From Elusimicrobiaceae bacterium (GTDB taxonomy: Bacteria; Elusimicrobiota; Elusimicrobia; Elusimicrobiales; Elusimicrobiaceae): a stretch of 43,486 nucleotides of DNA. The stretch spans positions 1 through 43,486 of the forward strand of contig JAEEIL010000001.1 in NCBI GenBank assembly GCA_016281355.1, read 5' to 3'. Below, piece after piece: positions 6,578 through 28,724 of the stretch (the stretch's first letter is position 1; every line of letters starts with the position of its first letter). The notes beneath the pieces were generated by a model that saw only the letters and a list, made by a program, of their open reading frames with translations, ran no database searches and was not told where the DNA came from. Both the position numbers and the translations under genes were made by a program.

Positions 6578-7498
6578 ATGCACCACTTATATTTATGGAT
6601 CTTATTTTGGGTTGTTGTTATAATAGCACTTGGGCTTGACCTTTTTATTTTAAATAAGCACCACGGGCATGTTTCAATTAAAGATGCTTCTGTAATGGTT
6701 GTGGCTTGGGTTACGCTTGCCCTTTGTTTCGGCGGTGTGATTTGGTTTGCATCAGGCATGCAAAGTGCACTCGAATTTTTTACAGGCTACGTTATAGAAT
6801 ACTCGCTTTCCATAGACAATATGTTTGTCTTCATTATGATTTTTACATACTTTGCAGTTCCCAAAGACCACCAGCCGAAAGTACTTTTATGGGGTATTTT
6901 GGGTGCAGTTGTGATGCGTTTTATTTTTATATTTATCGGCGTACAACTTATAACACGTTTTACTTTCATGATTTATGTTTTCGGTGCAATCTTGATTTAT
7001 ACTGCGATAAAAATGTTAGTCGGTAAAGATGAACAAATCGATCCGTCAAAAAACCCTGTTTTGAAGTTAATGAAAAAGATAATTCCCATAAATGAAAACA
7101 TAAGCAACGGTAACTTTTTTTGCCGGGAAAACGGCAAACTATTTGCTACAACTTTACTTGCAACGGTGGTTGTAATTGAAGCATCAGATTTGGTTTTTGC
7201 GGTTGATTCCATCCCCGCGGTTTTGGCAGTAACGCAAGATACTTTTATAGTGTACACATCCAATATTTTTGCGATTATCGGGCTTAGGTCACTTTACTTT
7301 TTGCTTGCAGGTATGGCAAACAAATTTGAGTATTTAAAATATGGTATTGCCGCTGTTTTGGCTTTTGTGGGTATAAAGATGTTGATATCGCATTATTACA
7401 AAATGCCGACGGTAATTTCCCTTCTTACCATAGTAATAATTCTAGGTATTGCGGTGTCGGCATCTGTAATAAAAAATAAGAAAGCAGTAAAAAACTAA
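6578..7498 (+). CDS. TerC/Alx-family integral membrane protein
   Basis: A 306-residue protein with about eight or nine hydrophobic helices. It carries the two hallmark acidic segments of the family, EYSLSIDNMFVF and EASDLVFAVDSIPA, each placing an Asp in the membrane. TerC/Alx proteins are linked to manganese or other metal handling, often coupled to secreted metalloenzymes. The length and order of motifs fit the Alx-type subgroup. No Shine-Dalgarno site precedes the ATG. The stop codon overlaps that of the convergent gene by four bases. Confidence 0.93.
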   Translation: MHHLYLWILFWVVVIIALGLDLFILNKHHGHVSIKDASVMVVAWVTLALCFGGVIWFASGMQSALEFFTGYVIEYSLSIDNMFVFIMIFTYFAVPKDHQPKVLLWGILGAVVMRFIFIFIGVQLITRFTFMIYVFGAILIYTAIKMLVGKDEQIDPSKNPVLKLMKKIIPINENISNGNFFCRENGKLFATTLLATVVVIEASDLVFAVDSIPAVLAVTQDTFIVYTSNIFAIIGLRSLYFLLAGMANKFEYLKYGIAAVLAFVGIKMLISHYYKMPTVISLLTIVIILGIAVSASVIKNKKAVKN

Positions 7499-9222
7499 TC
7501 TACGAACACAAATCCGGGTTGAACATCTAATTGAATATTATCTTCTATTGCTTGAAATAATTTCTCAGCTTTTTCAACACAATCCCCACGGGAAATACAA
7601 CCTCTAAATGTAGCAGAAGGGCTAAAATCAGACCACTGGACATCTCTGCGACAAAAAGGCTCCCCATGTAAGAACTGAAAGTTACTACTACCACCGTTTA
7701 CTTTTAAGGCATTTAAAGAGTCACAAGTATCTTTATGCTGATCCCTGCTATATACCATTTTACAAGATGAGGCATACTCTTCAGATATGTTATCCAATCT
7801 CTCACATTGTGATTTCATATCATCTACTATACTATTCCATTTATCTCTTAATTTAGCCGTTTTTTCCCCTAGGGTAACACCGAGAACGTTCTGTATCCTG
7901 CAAGATCCCGGGGCACCATTTTTCGCAACATTTTCTAAACCTTCAAAAGGTGTAACGCCAGCAGAAATGTCTGTTAATCTCTTTTTATGGCGTTCAAATG
8001 CTCGTCTGATTGATACAACCCTCTCCTCATAGCGTTGGCGGCCTTGCTCGCATTCCTTCATGTTTCGTTTTACTGTAAGAACAAGAGTTAACGGAGACAT
8101 TTCCGCCGGATCAAGCGTAGGAACTTTATCTTGTTTCTGATCTTTAGCAATTAAAACTTTATCTTGCGGTTCATCACCGTTAAAAGCAATTTCTGACAAA
8201 TGTTTTGAAGATTCTATATATTTCCTGCTGACAGAGGCATGGCTGTAAAAATAACTTGAAAACATATCTCTGCCTGTATTACCGAGAAAGTCAATCAAAT
8301 TTAAAGACGGTAAATCATCTTTGACATAATAACCCAGAGCACCGTCATAACCGCCAAAGTTACGCAAAGCGGCAAAGGTATCCGTAAAACTGCTATCCCC
8401 AATTAATTGTGAAATTACGCCTTCAGGTTTAACAACACTAAATTCCGGCCCGGAAACTATGGGCTTTACCATACGGCTGTTTTCCAAAGTTTGGACTTCC
8501 CCCTCATCTCCATCTGATTTATAAACTGATGAGGCAAAATCAGGCAACGGTTCGGGTTTTTGGGAAGCATTTACTTGCCCTTGTGCATTTTGACCGTCAC
8601 GGTCAAAACTGCCACGTACCTGACGGCGTTTGCTACCCATAACTTCATCCTGGTTTTGGGTTCTTGCTGTTGCTCTTTTATAACTGAAATCAGTAAAACC
8701 GTCATCTTCAAAATCAGTAAAAGAATCCCCTTTCGGCAAAGCACGTACGCCTTTTAAATCACCGTCAATTTCAGGAACGCTTACAGCGGTTTTATCCTGA
8801 TAAATACCGGCAATCTCTGCGGGGCGTTTATGGGTTCTTTCGTACTCATGATAATAAGTTACTTTTGCATTTATTAAACGATTAGCGCCTGCCTCTGCCG
8901 TATTAAAGCGGGATGTATAAAACACATCCGGTTCATATTCGGCTTGATATTTTTGGAAGGCACTTGCCATATTAGGTGTTTCTATGCCAAATGAATTTAA
9001 GGCTAAATCAATCAAAGTTAACTTCCTGGCGATATCTACTGATAAGCCATATCTGCCGGAGATATTTCTAAATAAAGGGATATAATAAACAGGTACCACT
9101 AAACTGATTAGCAAAACCAACAGGAACAAAAAGGACATCACCAAAAAAAATCTATTTTGGTTTTTTTGTTCTTTTTCCTGCTGTTGTGCAGATCTTACCT
9201 GATGTTTAATTTTTTGTGTCAT
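7495..9222 (-). CDS. Single-pass protein with Cys-rich C-terminal half, last gene of the six-gene unknown operon
   Basis: The 575-residue product has a charged N-terminus, one membrane helix (about 25-48) and a large, probably extracytoplasmic remainder. The middle (about 150-260) is polar and low in complexity. The C-terminal half holds about eight cysteines (for example MKEC, SSCKM, DTCDS, PFCRR, RGCIS, GDCVE), which suggests disulfides in an oxidising compartment. I recognise no family. AGAGG precedes the ATG, and the gene begins 27 bases after the coiled-coil gene at 9250-10005. The 3' end overlaps the TerC-family stop, with no intrinsic terminator visible between the convergent genes. 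Confidence 0.85.
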   Translation of the reverse strand: MTQKIKHQVRSAQQQEKEQKNQNRFFLVMSFLFLLVLLISLVVPVYYIPLFRNISGRYGLSVDIARKLTLIDLALNSFGIETPNMASAFQKYQAEYEPDVFYTSRFNTAEAGANRLINAKVTYYHEYERTHKRPAEIAGIYQDKTAVSVPEIDGDLKGVRALPKGDSFTDFEDDGFTDFSYKRATARTQNQDEVMGSKRRQVRGSFDRDGQNAQGQVNASQKPEPLPDFASSVYKSDGDEGEVQTLENSRMVKPIVSGPEFSVVKPEGVISQLIGDSSFTDTFAALRNFGGYDGALGYYVKDDLPSLNLIDFLGNTGRDMFSSYFYSHASVSRKYIESSKHLSEIAFNGDEPQDKVLIAKDQKQDKVPTLDPAEMSPLTLVLTVKRNMKECEQGRQRYEERVVSIRRAFERHKKRLTDISAGVTPFEGLENVAKNGAPGSCRIQNVLGVTLGEKTAKLRDKWNSIVDDMKSQCERLDNISEEYASSCKMVYSRDQHKDTCDSLNALKVNGGSSNFQFLHGEPFCRRDVQWSDFSPSATFRGCISRGDCVEKAEKLFQAIEDNIQLDVQPGFVFVD

Positions 9223-9249
9223 AAATCCTCTTTATTTTATGATAACAAA

Positions 9250-10005
9250 TTATTTCCTTAAAGTGTTTCTTTGTGTTTTTAAAGCCTCAACTTGTGCTTT
9301 AAGTTTGGCCGCTTTTGCTGCAGCTTCTTGCGCTGCTTTCATTTTAGCGGCACGTTCCTTTTCCGCTCTTTCTTGGGCAAGCCTGGCTTTATTTTCAGCA
9401 TCCCTTTGGGCTTGCTGTTGGGTATATTCGTTATTAAGGGATTGCCTTTCCCTCTCTTGGGCCAGACGCAATTGCTCTGCTTGCGCACGGGCTTTTTCCT
9501 TTTCTGCGGCTGCCGCTTCCGCACGGAGGCGTGCCTCTTTTGCCTGGACTTCCCTTAAGCGTGCATTATAAGCAGCAAGTTCAGAAGTATAATCAACACC
9601 TTGTGCCCCTGCCCTTAATTCCTGTTGTTTGGCAAGTTCTTGCTTCCTAAGTTGCTGGTTCAAAAGATCATTTTTTTGAACCGGCTTTGATATACCTTCA
9701 ATGCCAAGTTCTTTTAATCTCCTTTTCTTTTCAAGTTCCCTTTGCCTACGCGCTTCTTTAGCACGATATTCCTGCATCTGTGGGGAATTCACAACTGCAT
9801 CAACATTTGCCTGAACTTGCTTTTTGGTTTTTATATTATCTTTGACAATCAGAAAAATTGCAAATATTAAAAACAATGCCATTATAATGAACCAAGTAAT
9901 TTTAACAAGTTTGGCGAATTTGGAAAGTGCAGGCCTCCCTGCACTTTCCTGATTTGGAACTTGTTGAACTGTTTGCATTTTATTAAGGTTATTTAAATTC
10001 TGCAT
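9250..10005 (-). CDS. Single-pass membrane protein with long Ala/Glu/Arg coiled coil
   Basis: The 251-residue protein has a short N-terminal region and one helix (about 34-55). About 190 residues follow that are rich in Ala, Glu, Lys, Arg and Gln and almost certainly form long helices or a coiled coil (LREVQAKEARLRAEAAAAEK and similar). The look is that of TolA-like or periplasmic spacer proteins, but no conserved end domain is present. It contains no cysteine. The gene lies 14 bases after the downstream 550-residue paralogue gene and has GAGAGGG before the ATG. Function unknown. Low-complexity similarity to TolA should not be read as homology. Confidence 0.82.
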   Translation of the reverse strand: MQNLNNLNKMQTVQQVPNQESAGRPALSKFAKLVKITWFIIMALFLIFAIFLIVKDNIKTKKQVQANVDAVVNSPQMQEYRAKEARRQRELEKKRRLKELGIEGISKPVQKNDLLNQQLRKQELAKQQELRAGAQGVDYTSELAAYNARLREVQAKEARLRAEAAAAEKEKARAQAEQLRLAQERERQSLNNEYTQQQAQRDAENKARLAQERAEKERAAKMKAAQEAAAKAAKLKAQVEALKTQRNTLRK

Positions 10006-10019
10006 AGATTACCCTCTCA

Positions 10020-11672
10020 TCAAAAAGGCTTAAATCCTCCACCTAAAAATCCTCCTAAACCTTTCGTGGCAGCCTCTGAATTAATTAAAACTTCTCCTCC
10101 TGCAGCTGCACCACCGCCACCACCACTGCCTAATCCGCTTATCCAACTTGATATACTGGACCAAGGTAGCCAACATAAACCTAAAATTGCTGTTAAACCA
10201 CCGGCAATTAGACCAACTGTTGTAAGTTTTTCATCGATATCTATACCTTGATTAACCAAACCGAATCTTTCCTCATCACCCATCTGTTTTACCATGTCAA
10301 CTATACCGTTATCACCTGCCCACATCATACATGCTATGAAAACCAATGCTGCCGCGGATAATACACCTGCTGCAACCCATAACCACCATGCTGCCGGTGC
10401 CGCATAAGCTGCTTTTACTAAGAAATAAAGTGCTATAGCAGAAGCTAAAGTAACACCGATTAATATTCCTAGTTTTCTGTTAATATCATTTTGCAATGCT
10501 GCCATTTCTTCTTGCTGGCGTGCTGTTTCTTCCAATATTTGATTAACTTCATTTGCGGCAGCGGCTACCTCTGCAGCTACACCGTCCATGCTGGCACCAT
10601 CAAGCAAAGAATTTGCGACTTTACCTATGGTTGCCCCTTCCTCTATCGGGGAAACAATACCTTCCGGGTTACTACCGTCAAAGGCTGCTTCCGCTAAAGA
10701 TTTTTGACCTACGGCTTGCTGGCTGGCTAATGCTTTACCGGAATAAGCGGCCGCTAAATACATATCACCTGCTGCACCACGGCCTTTATCATTACCGCCT
10801 TTATAAGCCTGCCCCCTAAAACCTACATTAAAACCACCCATACCACCTGCACGGCCGAATTTAAAAGCTTCGCTGTTAGTATATTCAACACTGTTTTGCG
10901 GTAAAGCGCGGGTATTGCTATCACTGCCACCTATGCTACCACCGCTGAAAGAAGATGAACCTGCACCGCCACCGCTAGTACCACCGCCGTTTGCACCAAA
11001 AGATGAACCGCCGTTTGAAGATGCAAGTTTGTTTATTTGTGTTGAAGGCCTTACTTGATTTTTACCGCCTTTACCGTCTTTAGCACCTTTACCGGCTTTA
11101 CCACCTTTACCGGCTTTACCACCTTTACCGCCGGCGACATTACCTGCTGAGGCTGCAGCTGCTTGCATTTCCTGGAAAGCAGCCTCACCTTTAGCGGAAT
11201 TGTAAGCTAAAGCATCAGCTTCCGTCATACCTTCCACATCTTGTTCATAAGTAGAACCGAAAGGATTATAAGCATCACCATTGGCATAAGCACCGTTTGC
11301 ACCGGCACCATAAGCACCATCGGGGCCATAAACAAAACCTTCATCAGCGCGAACGCCTTCTGCATAAGCGCCATCTGAACTGAAAGCATCACCGGGTTCA
11401 GTTCCGTCAGATTTACCTTTTAAAAAGCGGGCACTGTAACCATCTTGCGTAGCTGCCATTTGCCTTTCAAGGTCACTGCGGCTAGCTGAATTACCACCCA
11501 TAAAATTATTATAAGCACTATCGCCAAAGCGGGATAAGGCCGCATCATTTGCGGCTTTTTGGTTATCGCCGCTGAAATTGTTTACAACACCTAAACCGAC
11601 CATAAGTGTTGCGCCAATCAACACGGCACCGGCCACTGTTTTAGTACCGAATTTAGATAACATGTTTTTCAT
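10020..11672 (-). CDS. Gly/Ala-rich four-helix membrane protein, paralogue 2 of the unknown operon
   Basis: The 550-residue product has an N-terminal helix (about 13-31) and a long soluble region. That region contains NGDAYNPFGST (131-141), a Gly-Lys low-complexity stretch (about 181-205) and a Gly/Ser linker. A conserved block with SNTRALPQ and EAFKFGRAGGMGGFNV (about 252-283) follows. A helical section leads to three more helices (about 401-419, 428-451, 485-502) and a Gly-rich end. The gene at 12092-13744 encodes a protein of exactly the same length, with the same motifs and helix positions. AGGAGG precedes the ATG. No known family recognised. Confidence 0.87.
   Translation of the reverse strand: MKNMLSKFGTKTVAGAVLIGATLMVGLGVVNNFSGDNQKAANDAALSRFGDSAYNNFMGGNSASRSDLERQMAATQDGYSARFLKGKSDGTEPGDAFSSDGAYAEGVRADEGFVYGPDGAYGAGANGAYANGDAYNPFGSTYEQDVEGMTEADALAYNSAKGEAAFQEMQAAAASAGNVAGGKGGKAGKGGKAGKGAKDGKGGKNQVRPSTQINKLASSNGGSSFGANGGGTSGGGAGSSSFSGGSIGGSDSNTRALPQNSVEYTNSEAFKFGRAGGMGGFNVGFRGQAYKGGNDKGRGAAGDMYLAAAYSGKALASQQAVGQKSLAEAAFDGSNPEGIVSPIEEGATIGKVANSLLDGASMDGVAAEVAAAANEVNQILEETARQQEEMAALQNDINRKLGILIGVTLASAIALYFLVKAAYAAPAAWWLWVAAGVLSAAALVFIACMMWAGDNGIVDMVKQMGDEERFGLVNQGIDIDEKLTTVGLIAGGLTAILGLCWLPWSSISSWISGLGSGGGGGAAAGGEVLINSEAATKGLGGFLGGGFKPF
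11063..11131. repeat. Short tandem repeat encoding the Gly-Lys stretch
   Basis: Near-identical units containing ACCTTTACCGGCTTTACC repeat here on the plus strand and encode GKGGKA-type repeats in the 10020-11672 gene. The array stays in frame. Such repeats can change length by slippage, so the linker may vary between strains. Confidence 0.7.
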
Positions 11673-12091: not shown

Positions 12092-13744
12092 TTATTTTTC
12101 CTCTTTTTCTTTAGCTGCTTTTCTATTTTTGCTTGAATTAATAGTGCCTGAAACAGCTTGCTTCATACGGCTAGCAGCCGCCGTAGTAGCAGTTCCCTGT
12201 AGCATTTTCACAAAACCGCTTGTAGCTGTTTTTGCTGCTTTCATACCTTGCCACCAAGCTATACCCAAAGCCGCGGGATATACACCACACATTAAGGTAT
12301 AGTAAATCCAATTTTGATTTGACATATTGGCTTTCTTTCGCAAATCCGCAAGTTCTGAAATGGTTTTGTAAATATTCATACCGTCGCCGTCATAATCAGC
12401 GCCAAAAATCGCAAATAAAGCCGCAGCCGTTATAAGGCCTGCAATAACATACTTAACCCAATGGTTAATTTTCATTGCTGCAGCAATTAAGAAACATGCT
12501 GCAACGGTAATTATACCGGCATTGATCATGTGATTCCAAACATTTCTTTGCAATCTGGCTTGTTTTTGCGCATCAGTTTCAACGGTTGTTTCAATTTTAT
12601 CTAAACCTAAATTTTTCTTGGTACGTTTAAAACCAAGTTTGTTACCGCTGATATCAATTGGGACATCACTGTTAAGAGTCATCCCCTCATCTATTTCTAC
12701 ACCACCGTCAAAGGCATTGGCTGCTTCCTGTGCACCTTGTGCAAGAGATTTTTCACCGTTTGTTTGTAAAGTAGCAACTGCTTTACTGGAAAGGGTATAA
12801 GCAGCTTGTAATTCTGATTTTGCACTGCCCCTGCCACCTTTTGTACCGTCAACTTCTCCACCACCTTTGGCGACATTAAAACCACCTTCATTACCGGCAC
12901 GGCCAAACCTAAAAGCATCAGCATTTGTTTGACCTGCATTTCCTTGCGGTATTGCACGGGTATTGCTATCTCTACCGCCTTTAGGGTTACCCCCCACCGG
13001 TACTGTACCAGTACCAATACCACCTGTTACTGAATTACCGCCTGCAACACCGCCACCTGCTACAGTGCCACCTTTTGCAGTTCCGAGTTTTGAACCGCCT
13101 TGTGAAGCCGTAAGTTTACCGACTTGCGTTGCTTGCCTGGATGATTTAGCACCTTTACCTTTTGAGCCGCTTGTTGCTGCCGCAGTAGCTTGTTGTGCTG
13201 CTTGAAATTGCCTTGCACCGGGGGCGGAACGTTGGCCCGGCTCTATCATTCCGCTTACGCCTTCTTCAAATGTAGAACCGAAAGGATCATAAACATCACC
13301 GTTACTGTAAGCACTGATTTCATTACCTTCGGCGTCATAAGAGGCGCCTTCTACGCCGGATCTTTGGGAATCAAGATAAGCGCGTGCCGCTTCAAAATTA
13401 GCCTGTTCTCTATCGGCATTGCTTCTTATTGTTCTTGAATCAACAAAACCATTTTGGGTACGGATTACACCCTTATTATTTTGAACTGCAGCGGGTAAAG
13501 TATCGTGGGTTTGTAAATCTAATCTCTCACCGTCAAAAGGATTAGTGTTTAAATTTAAACCTTCGCCGGTATAAATTGCACGACGTTCAGGGTTATAAGC
13601 AGGGGAATTATTATAAGCAGTATAAGTGTTATACCCAATAACTGCCGCAAAAACACCAAGGCCCAAACCCGTCATGACATTGGGTGATATTTTACCTTTG
13701 TTATTTAACAGAATATTTTTAAAAACTTTAATAATATTTTTCAT
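12092..13744 (-). CDS. Gly-rich four-helix membrane protein, paralogue 1 of the unknown operon
   Basis: The 550-residue product has an N-terminal helix (about 23-41) and an extracytoplasmic-type region with NGDVYDPFGSTFE (148-160). QVGKLTASQGGSKLG (207-221), a Gly linker, and SNTRAIPQ plus DAFRFGRAGNEGGFNV (259-291) follow. Three helices (about 407-424, 429-448, 479-497) precede a basic C-terminal tail that ends KAAKEKEEK, so N- and C-termini are both probably cytoplasmic. The motifs and layout match the 10020-11672 protein. GAGGAG precedes the ATG. No known domain was recognised. Confidence 0.87.
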   Translation of the reverse strand: MKNIIKVFKNILLNNKGKISPNVMTGLGLGVFAAVIGYNTYTAYNNSPAYNPERRAIYTGEGLNLNTNPFDGERLDLQTHDTLPAAVQNNKGVIRTQNGFVDSRTIRSNADREQANFEAARAYLDSQRSGVEGASYDAEGNEISAYSNGDVYDPFGSTFEEGVSGMIEPGQRSAPGARQFQAAQQATAAATSGSKGKGAKSSRQATQVGKLTASQGGSKLGTAKGGTVAGGGVAGGNSVTGGIGTGTVPVGGNPKGGRDSNTRAIPQGNAGQTNADAFRFGRAGNEGGFNVAKGGGEVDGTKGGRGSAKSELQAAYTLSSKAVATLQTNGEKSLAQGAQEAANAFDGGVEIDEGMTLNSDVPIDISGNKLGFKRTKKNLGLDKIETTVETDAQKQARLQRNVWNHMINAGIITVAACFLIAAAMKINHWVKYVIAGLITAAALFAIFGADYDGDGMNIYKTISELADLRKKANMSNQNWIYYTLMCGVYPAALGIAWWQGMKAAKTATSGFVKMLQGTATTAAASRMKQAVSGTINSSKNRKAAKEKEEK

Positions 13745-13760
13745 AAAATGCTCCTCATTA

Positions 13761-14957
13761 TTAACAACCTTTAACGCACTGCCATTCGCCTTCTTTGCCC
13801 ATCAACCAAGTTTTCTCACCGTCTTTAAAAACACCATTGCTAACAGAATCACCTTTCCAACCAGTCCAACAACCGCTTGTTACACAGTTAATGCCTGCAT
13901 CCAAAACTTTGTTAAATAAATTCATTCCAACACAACTCCAAACTAGATGGCCTTTGTTATCTAAACAGTTCTCATTTATATTATATTCATTCTCTTTCTT
14001 TTCTTTTTCCTTTTTCTCAGCTTCCTGTTTATTAACTTCATCACCGATGGAACGGGCTAAATCATTTTGTAGTTCTGAACTTACACCTAATGGTTCTTCA
14101 AGGCCAAGGTCTTGTTCGTCTTTCTCTAATCCTTCAGGTGTGACACCGTCTTGGAAGGCATTCATAGCCCCTACAGCGGCACTTTCTGCACTATCGGCAT
14201 TTGCACCTTTCATAGATTCCACACCGGCCCTATACAAATCTGCACTTCTACCTTTGACAAAAGCCATATCTTGTGCGGTTACATTATTAGTTACAGGAGT
14301 AGAATTAACTTGCCCGTTTTTATTACCACCTTCATTACGCCAAATTGAACCGGTAACGCTTGAACTACCGCCACCTGAACTAAAACCACCGCCCCTGCTG
14401 GCCAAACTGCCCGGAGTGGTTTTTTCATTTTGTTTACGTATAGACGCCTGTTTACCTGTAGTTTTATTATCTCTTTTATTTTTAATTCTTTTTGCTTCTT
14501 TATCAAAATCTTCTTTTGCTTGGCGTTTCCTTTGTATGCGGGATTCCCTGATACTTTGGGCTTCTTCGGCTTTTTCTTTTTCTTTGATTATTTCAGCATA
14601 CTCCGGATCCGGTGGAGGTGGAACACCTTCCGCTTTATCTTTGGCTTGGCGTTCCTCTTTATCTTCGGAAGAAAATAAAGAACCAAGGAGATCTGCATTA
14701 GATATGTTTGCATATTCCGGGTTATTACGTAAGAAATTGTCGGCATCGGCATCTGTACCGAACGGCAAGGCTGCAAGGTCTTGCTGCCTTTGCGAAGAAA
14801 ACTTACTATAATCAGGTTTATTTTCACCACCCATATTTGGTATAACGCTGATTAAAGTTAAAACCATAACCAACCCGCAACCAACCCAAGTATAGATTTG
14901 TTTTCTGTTATCACTTTGGTCTCTTCTTTGACCGCTACTTCTCATTATTATCGCCAT
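13761..14957 (-). CDS. First gene of the unknown operon: single-pass protein with Cys-rich end
   Basis: The 398-residue product has one N-terminal helix (about 22-40) and a charged helical section (about 97-165). A Gly/Ser block (LASRGGGFSSGGGSSS, about 185-200) is followed by DMAFVKGRSADLYRAG (230-245) and MNAFQDGVTPEG (265-276). These resemble the EAFKFGRAG and NAFDGG blocks of the two 550-residue proteins, so it is probably a divergent third paralogue. It lacks their C-terminal helices. Instead it ends in a domain with six cysteines (C331, C342, C358, C363, C394, C398). AAGGG lies 7 bases before the ATG. It is the promoter-proximal gene. Function unknown. Confidence 0.85.
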   Translation of the reverse strand: MAIIMRSSGQRRDQSDNRKQIYTWVGCGLVMVLTLISVIPNMGGENKPDYSKFSSQRQQDLAALPFGTDADADNFLRNNPEYANISNADLLGSLFSSEDKEERQAKDKAEGVPPPPDPEYAEIIKEKEKAEEAQSIRESRIQRKRQAKEDFDKEAKRIKNKRDNKTTGKQASIRKQNEKTTPGSLASRGGGFSSGGGSSSVTGSIWRNEGGNKNGQVNSTPVTNNVTAQDMAFVKGRSADLYRAGVESMKGANADSAESAAVGAMNAFQDGVTPEGLEKDEQDLGLEEPLGVSSELQNDLARSIGDEVNKQEAEKKEKEKKENEYNINENCLDNKGHLVWSCVGMNLFNKVLDAGINCVTSGCWTGWKGDSVSNGVFKDGEKTWLMGKEGEWQCVKGC

Positions 14958-25593: not shown

Positions 25594-26913
25594 GTGAAAC
25601 AGAAGACAAAAGCAATATGCCCCGTCTGCTTAGAAACGGTAGATGCCGTAAAAGAGCAGAAAGGAAACAATGTTTGGTTGCATAAGAATTGCCCCAAACA
25701 CGGAACATTTTCAGTCCAAATAGCCAAAGACGCTCAACGCTTTTTTGATAAAACATATGACGTTGAAGGAAAACCGTTTAAAGCCATAACTTCTTTTAAC
25801 GGTAATTGCGGCGACGATTGCGGTTGGTGCGAAAAACATAAACAACATATTTGCACCGGTCTTATTGAAATAACCGATGCCTGTAATTTATCTTGCCCGA
25901 TTTGTTACTTCGGTAAAAAAGCACATAAACATATTCCCGCAGAAGAATTTGAGTCACGCTTACAAACTCTTCTTACCGTTGAAAAAGGGCATTTGGATGT
26001 CCTCCAAATCAGCGGAGGGGAATGTTTATTGCACCCTCAACTTAAAGAGATTTTGCAAATTGCTTTGAAGGAAGATATAGGCCGTATTTTAATTAATACC
26101 AACGGTATTAATTTGCTTACGGATACAGTAATATTTGATTTTATTAAACAGCATAAAGACCGTATAGAAATTTATCTGCAATTTGACGGATTTGATGACA
26201 ATGTTTATAAAACACTTCGCGGTAAAACACTCTTGAAACAAAAACAAGATATTTTAGAAAAATTAAACAAAGCCGAAATTAAAATATGCTTGGCAGTTAC
26301 CGTGTATCAAGAAAATTTAAAAGAAATACCTGCTATTTTACAGTTAGCGGTAGATTTAAAACATATATCGGGCATTACTTTTCAACGTTTAACAAAAGTG
26401 GGTAGTGCGACAGGCACAAAGATACCTTCCGTATTACAGGAAGATATTTTGTTGGCTATTGAAAATAGCGGATATATGAAGTATAAAGACTTAATCCCTT
26501 TACCTTGTTCACATGAAAACTGTACCAGTTTAGGTTTTTTGTTTTGCCAAGGTAAAAAGGTTTATTCTTTGGGCGATTATGTTGATTATTCCAAATGCAA
26601 AACACAAATATCTAACCGCATTGCTTTTGATAAAACAATTTTAGATTACATGAAAAAGAATGTTTGTAAATGTTTCGTCGGGCGTGTGTTGGGTGGAAAT
26701 TTTATGTTGGATAAATTGCAGGAATTTGCACAAGGGAACGGCTCTTGCCATAAAGATATGAAAATCGTACGCATCATAGTAAAAAATTTTATGGATGCCG
26801 ATACTTTTGATTGGCAACGCGCTCAAAAATGTTGTACGGGTGTAAGTGTCGGGAACGGTAAAGTTATTCCGTTCTGCATACACAACACATTAAAAGGAAA
26901 AATAAAATGGTAG
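25594..26913 (+). CDS. Radical SAM protein of the tetraether-lipid-synthase (Tes)-like group
   Basis: The 439-residue protein has the radical SAM cluster motif CNLSCPIC (C97, C101, C104). Before it come a zinc-finger-like segment CPVC...NCPKHG (C9, C12, C33) and CGDDCGWCEKHKQH (C72, C76, C79). After it come more Cys groups, including PCSHENC, CKCF and KCC near the end. The N-terminal Cys/His layout and the PCSHENC segment match my recollection of the family that includes archaeal tetraether lipid synthase, which joins lipid tails. GTG is taken as the start; no Shine-Dalgarno site is present. Neighbours are Lgt-like and ICMT-like membrane proteins. Substrate not known. Confidence 0.82.
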   Translation: MKQKTKAICPVCLETVDAVKEQKGNNVWLHKNCPKHGTFSVQIAKDAQRFFDKTYDVEGKPFKAITSFNGNCGDDCGWCEKHKQHICTGLIEITDACNLSCPICYFGKKAHKHIPAEEFESRLQTLLTVEKGHLDVLQISGGECLLHPQLKEILQIALKEDIGRILINTNGINLLTDTVIFDFIKQHKDRIEIYLQFDGFDDNVYKTLRGKTLLKQKQDILEKLNKAEIKICLAVTVYQENLKEIPAILQLAVDLKHISGITFQRLTKVGSATGTKIPSVLQEDILLAIENSGYMKYKDLIPLPCSHENCTSLGFLFCQGKKVYSLGDYVDYSKCKTQISNRIAFDKTILDYMKKNVCKCFVGRVLGGNFMLDKLQEFAQGNGSCHKDMKIVRIIVKNFMDADTFDWQRAQKCCTGVSVGNGKVIPFCIHNTLKGKIKW

Positions 26914-27125
26914 AAAAAAATAATCAATCTGAAGAACAAGATTATCAGGAATTACAGCGAATATTATCGCAAAAACCTAAAGATAATCGGATAAATACTC
27001 CGACGGAAAAAACTTCAACAGGCAAAAAGATAGGGATAGTTGTTTTAATTATACTTGGTGTAGTAATTGCAATACCTTTCTTATTGTTTATTGCTTGTTT
27101 GGGCATGATTGTAGTTTCTAATTAA
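26907..27125 (+). CDS. Small single-pass membrane protein of the radical SAM module
   Basis: The 72-residue product has a polar N-terminus of about 43 residues. One strong membrane helix (about 45-70) ends at the C-terminus. It overlaps the radical SAM gene by 7 bases, has AAGGA before its ATG, and is followed after 2 bases by the Lgt-like gene. The tight packing argues it is real and works with them, perhaps as a membrane tether. No family recognised. Confidence 0.7.
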   Translation: MVEKNNQSEEQDYQELQRILSQKPKDNRINTPTEKTSTGKKIGIVVLIILGVVIAIPFLLFIACLGMIVVSN

Positions 27126-27127
27126 TT

Positions 27128-27763
27128 ATGTTAGCATATGCAATTTGTTCTTCTATCGGTTTAGCGGTAGGCGGATTGGCTGCTTGGAAATTGCCCATGC
27201 AACGCCCTCCGCAAGAGGTACGTTTGCCTTATTATACTTGTGCTTTTATAGGGGCCATTTTAGGGGCAAAAATACCTATTTGGCTGTCTTACGGCTTTGC
27301 AGATTATATAATCCAAGGCAAAAGTGTGATGGGCGGTATTTTGGGGGCCTTTTTGGCAATAAATTTATATAAAGCATGTTCACGTCATAAAGGTGGTTTT
27401 GGGGGGCGTTTTGTGATTCCTTTAGCAATTGCTATCGGTTTCGGTAAAATAGGTTGTTATTTAAACGGATGTTGCGGTGGCACTTTAACTTTCCCGGTAC
27501 AACTTATAGAGAGTATGTTTCAGTTTATATCGGCAATTTGTTTATATAAATTTTATCAGCATACAAAAAGGCCTGATTTATTATTCCCCGTTTATTTGCT
27601 TGCTTATTTAAGTATGCGTTTTGTAATTGAATTTTGGCGTATAGAACCGCGTGTTTTGTTTGGGTTTACCGTATATCAATATTTAGCATTAATTTTCATC
27701 CCCGTATGTATTTTAATTATTTGGAGGCGTTCCCATGTTAACATGGTTGTTGCAGGCAAGTAA
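27128..27763 (+). CDS. Lgt-like (prolipoprotein diacylglyceryl transferase family) membrane protein
   Basis: The 211-residue product has about seven membrane helices and the general Lgt pattern, with MGGILGA (about 68-74) and GFGKIGCYLNGCCGG (about 104-118). Genuine Lgt transfers diacylglycerol from phosphatidylglycerol to lipoproteins and uses a His-Gly-Gly motif and a conserved Arg before GCF/GNF. Here the His is Met and the Arg is Lys (K107), and the protein is about 50-80 residues shorter. So it is probably not the housekeeping Lgt. A role in phospholipid handling with the radical SAM protein is inferred. Confidence 0.82.
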   Translation: MLAYAICSSIGLAVGGLAAWKLPMQRPPQEVRLPYYTCAFIGAILGAKIPIWLSYGFADYIIQGKSVMGGILGAFLAINLYKACSRHKGGFGGRFVIPLAIAIGFGKIGCYLNGCCGGTLTFPVQLIESMFQFISAICLYKFYQHTKRPDLLFPVYLLAYLSMRFVIEFWRIEPRVLFGFTVYQYLALIFIPVCILIIWRRSHVNMVVAGK

Positions 27764-28724
27764 AAATGCCCAGAACCCAATACTTTTTTTAATAGGTATT
27801 GCTTTGGTATATATAACCGGTGTTGTTCTTTTAGCTGCTGTTATATGGAAATTTTATCAATATGAAGAAGGCCAAACTCCGAGAGTTGAAAAGAAAAATA
27901 AACATTTCTTTTCAACACGGGAAATGTTGCTTTTGGTATTAATACTTTTTCCCTTTTGGATAGGTTCTTGGGGGCAAGTGTATTTACCGAAAATTGCTAA
28001 TTATTTCTTCTTTGCCATAGGTTCATTTTGTGTAATATTTGCTACCGCTTGGCATATTAGGGCTAAATTCAATATAGGTCTTTTATGGTCAGATGATATA
28101 GAAATTAAAGAAAAACACCCCTTGCAAACTACCGGTGCTTATGCTTTGGCAAGGCACCCTATGTATGCTTCTTTACTGTTGTGGTGTTGGGGTTGCAGTT
28201 TTGTTATGGCAAATGCCGTTACTATGATTCTTGTAAGTGCTTTGTTTTTGCCTTTAATGTATAGACGTGCTAAAGCGGAAGAAAAATTGCTTTTAGAGAA
28301 GAACCGTGATTATTTGTTATATCAAAAAAATGTGCGCATGTTAAGCATTACTTTAGGTGGTTTTAATAGCATAATAGTTCGCCTTATAATTGCTTTGATT
28401 TTGCTTTATTGCACGGCACTTAATTTGATAAATTTACCGGTTCTGTTCGGGTTTGTTTTTATCCATCTTTATTTGGGATATAGTTTAATACCGGAGAAAA
28501 CGGCCTTTTCTTATCGTTCTAAATCGGGGATGATGCTGATATTTGGGTTGCTCGGTTTATATTTTCATCACGCTTTCTTTTGCTTTTTTTACGTAATAAT
28601 TGCCATGTGCCTTTATGGTCTTAAGTGGAATTGCCCTTGTATGTTGGTATATGAAAAATACCATGGTTGCCCTTGTTTCGCTTTGCTGAAAAAATGCAGT
28701 TTGCGTAAAAAAGCGGACAGATAA
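27735..28724 (+). CDS. ICMT/PEMT-like membrane methyltransferase with Cys-rich C-terminal end
   Basis: The 329-residue product has an N-terminal helix. A four-helix methyltransferase domain follows, with GAYALARHPMYASLLLW (about 134-150) and EEKLLLEKNRDYLLYQ, the hallmarks of isoprenylcysteine carboxyl / phospholipid methyltransferases. After about residue 205 come additional helices and a short end with seven cysteines (CPCMLVYEKYHGCPCFALLKKC region and CSLR). GGAGG lies 7 bases before the ATG, and the start overlaps the Lgt-like gene by 29 bases. The substrate could be a lipid head group or an acidic end group; not determined. Confidence 0.82.
   Translation: MLTWLLQASKNAQNPILFLIGIALVYITGVVLLAAVIWKFYQYEEGQTPRVEKKNKHFFSTREMLLLVLILFPFWIGSWGQVYLPKIANYFFFAIGSFCVIFATAWHIRAKFNIGLLWSDDIEIKEKHPLQTTGAYALARHPMYASLLLWCWGCSFVMANAVTMILVSALFLPLMYRRAKAEEKLLLEKNRDYLLYQKNVRMLSITLGGFNSIIVRLIIALILLYCTALNLINLPVLFGFVFIHLYLGYSLIPEKTAFSYRSKSGMMLIFGLLGLYFHHAFFCFFYVIIAMCLYGLKWNCPCMLVYEKYHGCPCFALLKKCSLRKKADR

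Follow-up and report, generated by a model that had tools for sequence, protein, structure and literature searches.

The window analysed here is a stretch of 43,486 nucleotides from an Elusimicrobiaceae bacterium (assembly GCA_016281355.1, contig JAEEIL010000001.1, positions 1 to 43,486), and it carries a compact cassette of four genes encoding a radical S-adenosylmethionine (SAM) protein that resembles tetraether lipid synthase (Tes), a small one-helix membrane protein, a paralog of Lgt, and a membrane methyltransferase of the ICMT/PEMT type (Table 1). An original prediction, made from the sequence alone, had read this layout as a possible bacterial pathway for unusual, perhaps membrane-spanning, lipids. 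The four open reading frames, their two overlaps and the short gap between the second and third genes were reproduced with the same coordinates, all on the plus strand. A gene that we take to be thyX lies divergently upstream of the cassette and the downstream genes are presumably nadK and recN, these names being given by sequence recognition. The source assembly comprises 1.5 Mb over 46 contigs, and closely related genomes in the collection bear the titles Elusimicrobiaceae or Elusimicrobium. Scanning gave no usable promoter or terminator signal, with promoter-like matches at the level of shuffled sequence (14 versus 14.1) and 5 terminator-like matches versus 3.0 in shuffles (standard deviation 1.7).

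Table 1. Features of the cassette. Gene positions are nucleotides of the window; residue numbers refer to the encoded proteins.
Feature	Position	Strand	Remarks
Tes-like radical SAM gene	25594-26913	+	GTG start; 439 aa
Small one-helix membrane protein gene	26907-27125	+	72 aa; 7-base overlap with radical SAM gene
Lgt paralog gene	27128-27763	+	211 aa; 2-base gap after small-protein gene; Pfam LGT
ICMT/PEMT-like membrane methyltransferase gene	27735-28724	+	329 aa; 29-base overlap with Lgt-like gene
Radical SAM protein, rubredoxin-like domain	C9, C12, C33, H36		Invariant in close homologues
Radical SAM protein, N-terminal auxiliary cluster	C72, C76, C79, H82/H85		Invariant in close homologues
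Radical SAM protein, CX3CX2C	C97, C101, C104		Invariant in close homologues
Radical SAM protein, C-terminal auxiliary domain	C413, C414, C428		K397 at the Tes Met439 position
Radical SAM protein, clade-specific Cys	C318, C335, C358, C360		
Lgt paralog, mapped residues	Y160, R164, E168, R171; K107; M68		E. coli Y235, R239, E243, R246; R143; H103

The family links made in the original prediction (Tes-like, Lgt-like and ICMT/PEMT-like) proved correct in Pfam, NCBIfam, solved-structure and fold comparisons. The radical SAM protein exceeds the curated Pfam cut-offs for Radical_SAM (67 bits) and for the HMPTM N-terminal zinc ribbon (57 bits); in UniProt, the mj0619 protein that today is called GDGT-MAS or Tes is listed as HMPTM_METJA (PMC9433317). 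Its best NCBIfam match is the radical SAM (seleno)protein family TrsS (NF045646), at 243.7 bits over profile positions 2-431 of 441, and its second is Tes (NF045702), at 181.4 bits. Membership of TrsS was rejected on the cut-off of 490, and membership of canonical Tes on the cut-off of 450, the placement in a separate clade and a Lys at the Met439 position; two bacterial relatives in our survey score 557 and 560 bits against the same Tes model. The closest solved relative of the protein is GDGT-MAS (7TOL, E 1e-41). A preliminary model based on a shallow alignment (predicted local distance difference test, pLDDT, 61) was discarded, and the model used here was built from a deeper alignment of 46 sequences (mean pLDDT 88.8). 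Foldseek (E 1e-34) and VIA-align both place 7TOL/7TOM at the top for this model by a wide margin. With 415 of its 439 residues aligned to 7TOM (root-mean-square deviation 2.8, Z 46.3; next entry Z 21.7 in VIA-align), the fold, as modelled, is that of Tes/GDGT-MAS over the whole length. The peptide-modifying enzymes SuiB and SkfB are among the next structural neighbours, with 236-249 aligned residues versus 415 for Tes.

The Cys-rich character that the original prediction had noticed was borne out by 28 Cys, His or Met positions that are invariant in 18 homologues. For Tes, the structure paper lists as metal ligands C9-X2-C12-X20-C33-X2-H36, C73/C77/C80 plus a His, and the CX3CX2C motif, all of which are matched in the window protein (Table 1); it also describes Met439 as a labile ligand on the C-terminal cluster, calls it completely conserved in 1000 archaeal homologues, and reports that the M439A variant keeps robust activity (PMC9433317). 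By sequence alignment, the Met439 position is Lys in 17/17 close homologues of the window protein and Met in 5/5 canonical bacterial Tes rows. Because M439A Tes stays active, loss of this Met marks the subfamily without proving a different reaction. The four clade-specific Cys are present in the close clade only and could form a putative further metal site. Phylogenetic analysis, which had been proposed as a check on the lipid reading, places the radical SAM protein in its own strongly supported clade (100/100) on a long stem, separate from the Tes clade (100/100). None of its clade mates emerged as having a proven substrate other than lipid, the result that the original prediction had named as refuting. 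A separate observation concerns loci L109-L113 and L136, from the phylum of genome G253, which encode radical SAM proteins of the canonical Tes clade and have what we take to be a CDP-alcohol phosphatidyltransferase-like gene about 2.5 kb off on the other strand; judged by their sequences, these proteins are candidates for true bacterial tetraether synthesis.

The Lgt-like protein belongs to the Pfam family LGT (PF01790; 66.3 bits, cut-off 24.9) and falls short of the Lgt equivalog cut-offs (TIGR00544, 29 versus 118.9 bits; NF000778, 42.3 versus 334 bits). The source genome encodes, in addition to the cassette copy (65 bits), a housekeeping Lgt on another contig (176 bits). On a phylogeny of 18 housekeeping and 34 linked rows, the two groups split at 100/100, and a larger tree that includes the housekeeping proteins L150, L151 and L156, missing from the first, splits 21 housekeeping from 35 linked-type rows at 99 in the SH-like approximate likelihood ratio test. 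This division follows the presence of the radical SAM gene. The carriers counted were 36, comprising 33 non-canonical genomes and three of the six canonical Tes genomes. Two or more Lgt-family genes were found in 31 of the 33 non-canonical carriers, with one close to the radical SAM gene in 30 of those 31; in carrier G622 the paralog is unlinked, lying about 334 kb from the radical SAM gene, and groups with the linked type. The three canonical Tes genomes tested have one Lgt each and no paralog. Two Lgt genes above the cut-off occur in 3 of 62 non-carriers, and there the extra copies group with housekeeping Lgt on the tree. The co-occurrence that the original prediction had named as a check is therefore strong, with linked-type Lgt in 31/33 non-canonical carriers versus 0/62 non-carriers and the gene order kept in 18/18 close loci. 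The radical SAM protein and its linked Lgt also co-diverge: in a Mantel comparison of tree distances across 18 genomes, the correlation was 0.86 (p=0.0001) with linked Lgt and 0.27 with housekeeping Lgt (partial correlation 0.86), the p-values being indicative only, as the genomes are related.

The two carriers without a paralog are G272, in which no Lgt was found at all, and G647, with one Lgt place reported as two pieces. Their loci (L108 and L118, respectively) each hold two Tes-like radical SAM genes, and these four proteins form their own clade. Read from sequence, with no family search, the neighbours include short-chain dehydrogenase-like and dehydratase-like genes, as well as a ketosynthase-like gene in L118. 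Such loci are possibly clusters of the polyene or fatty-acid type.

The residues of the Lgt paralog point to a retained lipid site and a changed acceptor. According to the E. coli Lgt study, R143 and R239 with E243, R246 and Y235 lie at the lipid site, H103 of the HGGL motif is the proposed binder of the lipobox peptide and does not tolerate replacement by A, N, Q, R or Y, and the active site faces the periplasm (PMC4728403). Equivalent residues were mapped by motif spacing. In the 34 linked paralogs, the R239 and Y235 positions are kept in 34/34, E243 in 33/34 and R246, as R or K, in 34/34, and the R143 position holds R in 22 paralogs, K in 11 and S in one. At the H103 position, H or Y occupies 18/18 housekeeping Lgt proteins and 0/34 linked paralogs, which have M, L, V, A, E, T or F. 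Because Tyr occurs here in 5 of the 18 housekeeping proteins, only the absence of both residues is distinctive, and because the source genome's own housekeeping Lgt is one of these five, the E. coli mutant data are not valid for every lineage. This pattern suggests a paralog that would still bind phosphatidylglycerol and would not serve ordinary prolipoproteins.

The order of radical SAM gene, small membrane gene or genes, Lgt-like gene and ICMT-like gene just mentioned was scored in close loci with enough sequence past the radical SAM gene; L036 and L037, which end soon after it, stand outside the 18-locus count, and the neighbourhoods of the close matches G294, G296, G298 and G299 are not in the locus counts. 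Flanking families that recur beyond the cassette are mostly confined to one lineage. Of 32 distant loci, whose radical SAM proteins are 22-42% identical to that of the window, 22 have an Lgt-like gene on the same strand no more than about 6 kb away; without the seven canonical Tes clade loci, the count is 22/25. At those seven loci no Lgt-like gene was found within the same distance and strand (0/7); two radical SAM proteins of this clade were scored against the Tes model, and both exceed its cut-off. The linkage extends to plasmids, of which nine loci were found and six examined (H6, H7 and H8 were left out): an Lgt-like gene is near the radical SAM gene in three, from Persicobacter, Nonomuraea and Mycobacterium branderi, and was not found near that of Mycolicibacterium vanbaalenii, Haloarcula and Salinirubellus. 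In these last plasmid loci (L138, L140 and L142), a methyltransferase-domain gene directly follows the Tes-like radical SAM gene, and the genes beside the pair hint at thiol chemistry: in the haloarchaea they are peroxiredoxin-like and DUF547 genes, in Mycolicibacterium they encode CcdA and a disulfide oxidoreductase.

Close relatives of the radical SAM protein are 56-87% identical to it and come from metagenome-assembled genomes (MAGs) titled Elusimicrobiaceae, Alphaproteobacteria, Kiritimatiellae or 'Bacterium', most of them titled as from rumen, other gut sections or faeces. Within the window's genus, 4 of 18 genomes have the cassette radical SAM gene, and a sample of the phylum gave a match at E <= 1e-35 in 13/247 genomes, 10 of them close; surveys of the phyla of three other carriers gave 13/44, 11/387 and 12/398 genomes. 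The cassette site is empty in two same-genus genomes, which have other genes between thyX and nadK, whereas G002 carries the cassette at this site and G006 at another. Between the window and an Alphaproteobacteria MAG, identity is 74% for the radical SAM protein, 55% for linked Lgt and 29% for housekeeping Lgt. This comparison indicates transfer of the cassette as a unit between distant gut bacteria. It should be noted that MAG binning errors are possible for single distribution cases.

The small membrane protein has no Pfam family above cut-off. The copy in the window has a KK pair preceding one strongly hydrophobic helix, with Cys64 near its far end (LLFIAC), and in close homologues TC, AC or GGC ends the hydrophobic stretch. 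In two Elusimicrobiaceae genomes (L032:4612-6114 and L064:2977-4458), the small protein forms the C-terminal tail of the radical SAM protein, with the Cys kept. Because this fusion puts the N-terminus of the small protein in the cytoplasm, its Cys is predicted to lie on the outer side of the membrane, the same side as the Lgt active site. A strict Cys motif is present in 16/17 close loci, the 17th being a radical SAM fusion. In a control, it occurred in 29/52 small hydrophobic open reading frames of cassettes versus 7/101 outside them (Fisher p 5e-11), figures in which related loci are not independent, reading frames were called mechanically and some outside matches resemble ordinary lipoboxes. 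The motif is firmly supported in the close clade only, and the body of the protein is poorly conserved, with 40-69% identity even within Elusimicrobiaceae. The protein may act as a tether, serve as an acceptor, or do both.

The ICMT-like protein exceeds the curated Pfam cut-offs for ICMT (PF04140, 43 bits) and PEMT (PF04191, 29 bits) and stays under that of the NCBIfam isoprenylcysteine methyltransferase NF040696 (67 versus 160 bits). R140, H141, P142, M143 and Y144, together with E182 and E183, are invariant in 15 ICMT-like sequences, and we take these to be the RHPxY and EE motifs of ICMT. An extra C-terminal membrane domain ending CPC...CPC gave no Pfam match at E 0.05, and its conserved WNCPCM...YEKYH.CPC tail (window 28614-28721) is possibly a metal site. 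The Elusimicrobiota locus L062 has a DUF4395 gene (47 bits) between the ICMT-like and Lgt-like genes; the idea that the C-terminal domain is itself a diverged DUF4395 found no support (hhalign probability 0.2%).

Taken together, these data tip the balance towards the cassette being a mobile, membrane-bound module for lipid modification, whose acceptor would not be a lipoprotein and is possibly the Cys of the small protein. What favours a lipid role is that Tes and Lgt, the two relatives understood best, both bind phospholipid (PMC9433317; PMC4728403), and to this extent the pathway of the original prediction stands. Its membrane-spanning product is no more than possible: the radical SAM protein falls outside the clade whose tested members pass the Tes model and has no labile Met ligand, and no Lgt paralog occurs in the three canonical bacterial Tes genomes tested. 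In such a module, the radical SAM protein would work at the cytoplasmic face or inner leaflet, with the small protein as its membrane tether, and would use SAM and its auxiliary clusters to make a radical on an unactivated lipid-tail carbon. The Lgt paralog would transfer diacylglyceryl from outer-leaflet phosphatidylglycerol to an acceptor other than a prolipoprotein, possibly the outer Cys of the small protein, and the ICMT-like enzyme would methylate the product.

Several points weigh against this interpretation. The substrate, product and activity of every module member are predicted only. The ICMT-like gene, present in 5/32 distant loci, is not part of the core, and the strict Cys motif is found in only 7/24 distant linked loci. 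Transferase activity may have been lost in the close clade, because R143, essential in E. coli Lgt, is replaced there by Lys in 11/12 paralogs. In addition, the Lgt active site is periplasmic, whereas the radical SAM protein must be cytoplasmic. With the two active sites on opposite sides of the membrane, direct hand-over requires a lipid that is flipped or spans the bilayer; this speaks for the membrane-spanning idea without proving it, and membrane-spanning lipids are a possible product.

The alternative that survives best, which we judge to be unlikely, is a bacterial synthase of the tetraether or diabolic-acid type, in which the radical SAM protein would join two tails by a C-C bond and its partners would trim or methylate head groups. 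The whole-length Tes fold and metal sites at the same positions as in Tes are what this model would lead one to expect, and bacterial Tes homologues have been proposed for the synthesis of branched glycerol dialkyl glycerol tetraethers (brGDGTs) by Zeng et al. (PMC8941075). However, the protein scores 181 bits where the Tes cut-off is 450, it lies in a clade separate from Tes, and canonical bacterial Tes clade loci in the same survey have no Lgt partner. The labile Met439 is also Lys throughout the close homologues, a loss which by itself is compatible with coupling, the M439A variant of Tes being active (PMC9433317).

Maturation of a peptide in the manner of TrsS is a somewhat weaker candidate. 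Here the small protein would be the substrate of the radical SAM protein, and the Lgt-like and ICMT-like proteins would be further tailoring enzymes. TrsS is the best NCBIfam match, yet its cut-off of 490 exceeds the 243.7 bits scored; SuiB and SkfB come next after Tes among structural neighbours, but they align over little more than half as many residues. The small protein adjoins the radical SAM protein, is sometimes fused to it, and has in its Cys a plausible modification site; this Cys is, however, predicted to lie across the membrane from the radical SAM protein, and the rest of the small protein is poorly conserved.

A more specific form of the lipid-modification module is a bacterial counterpart of CAAX processing, in which the Lgt paralog would attach diacylglyceryl to the small-protein Cys, the ICMT-like enzyme would methylate the protein so lipidated, and the sometimes fused Tes-like enzyme would couple or alter tails, giving an altered lipid anchor. 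We hold this to be speculative and slightly less probable than peptide maturation. The same low probability attaches to a wider form, taken jointly with the CAAX-like reading, in which most bacterial Tes homologues outside the canonical group, some brGDGT candidates perhaps among them, would act in an Lgt-paralog pathway and not in tetraether synthesis. Finally, the patchy distribution (4/18 same-genus genomes) and the differing insertion sites within the genus could suggest chance neighbours or mobile-element hitch-hikers without a common function, an explanation made very improbable by a gene order kept across phyla, the co-divergence of the radical SAM protein and Lgt paralog, the lack of linked-type Lgt in all 62 non-carriers, and the distant paralog that G622 retains.

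Elsewhere in the window, a run of minus-strand genes (7495-10005, 10020-11672, 12092-13744 and 13761-14957) encodes Gly-rich membrane-anchored proteins. Two of these, each of 550 residues (10020-11672 and 12092-13744), share YNPFGST / YDPFGST and DSNTRA stretches; they look paralogous and may belong to a surface or secretion system specific to the lineage.

In the open-licence literature, a scope outside which the TrsS source paper lies, no report was found of an Lgt gene paired with a Tes-like radical SAM gene, and only the Tes structure paper (PMC9433317) was found for the InterPro family of the radical SAM protein. The pairing of a Tes-fold enzyme with an Lgt paralog dedicated to it appears to be new. 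The structure paper notes Tes homologues in bacteria that are not known to produce biphytanyl chains, and leaves open what these homologues catalyse (PMC9433317). Our survey splits these bacterial relatives into a canonical group without an Lgt paralog and a broad Lgt-linked group. For the latter, the paralog is a specific partner that is predicted to bind lipid and to serve a different acceptor, through which that open question becomes testable. A cautionary consequence is that a Tes-like gene alone is unsafe as a marker of tetraether producers.

Compared with known systems, the cassette resembles each of its relatives in part. With ICMT (PF04140; 4A2N) and PEMT (PF04191), the fourth protein shares the RHPxY and EE motifs, whereas it scores under the NF040696 cut-off and has an added C-terminal membrane domain with CPC...CPC; to our knowledge, no prenylated protein is known in this setting. 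The radical SAM protein has the length and layout of TrsS, its top curated family, a name given by Haft and Tolstoy 2025 (mSystems) according to a table row and reference in PMC13188914, but reaches half of the cut-off score and has no in-frame stop, a comparison made by profile and not by gene neighbours. The Lgt paralog shares with Lgt (PF01790) the fold family and the Y235/R239/E243/R246 set, and differs in having no HGGL histidine, in the Lys at R143 in the close clade, in scores far under the equivalog cut-offs and in its position outside the housekeeping clade. The closest likeness is to Tes/GDGT-MAS (MJ0619, 7TOL/7TOM, NF045702), with which the radical SAM protein shares the whole-length fold, the rubredoxin-like domain, the N- and C-terminal auxiliary cluster domains and CX3CX2C, and from which it is set apart by a shorter C-terminal half, Lys in place of Met439, four clade-specific Cys, a separate clade, and the company of a dedicated Lgt paralog and an ICMT-like partner.

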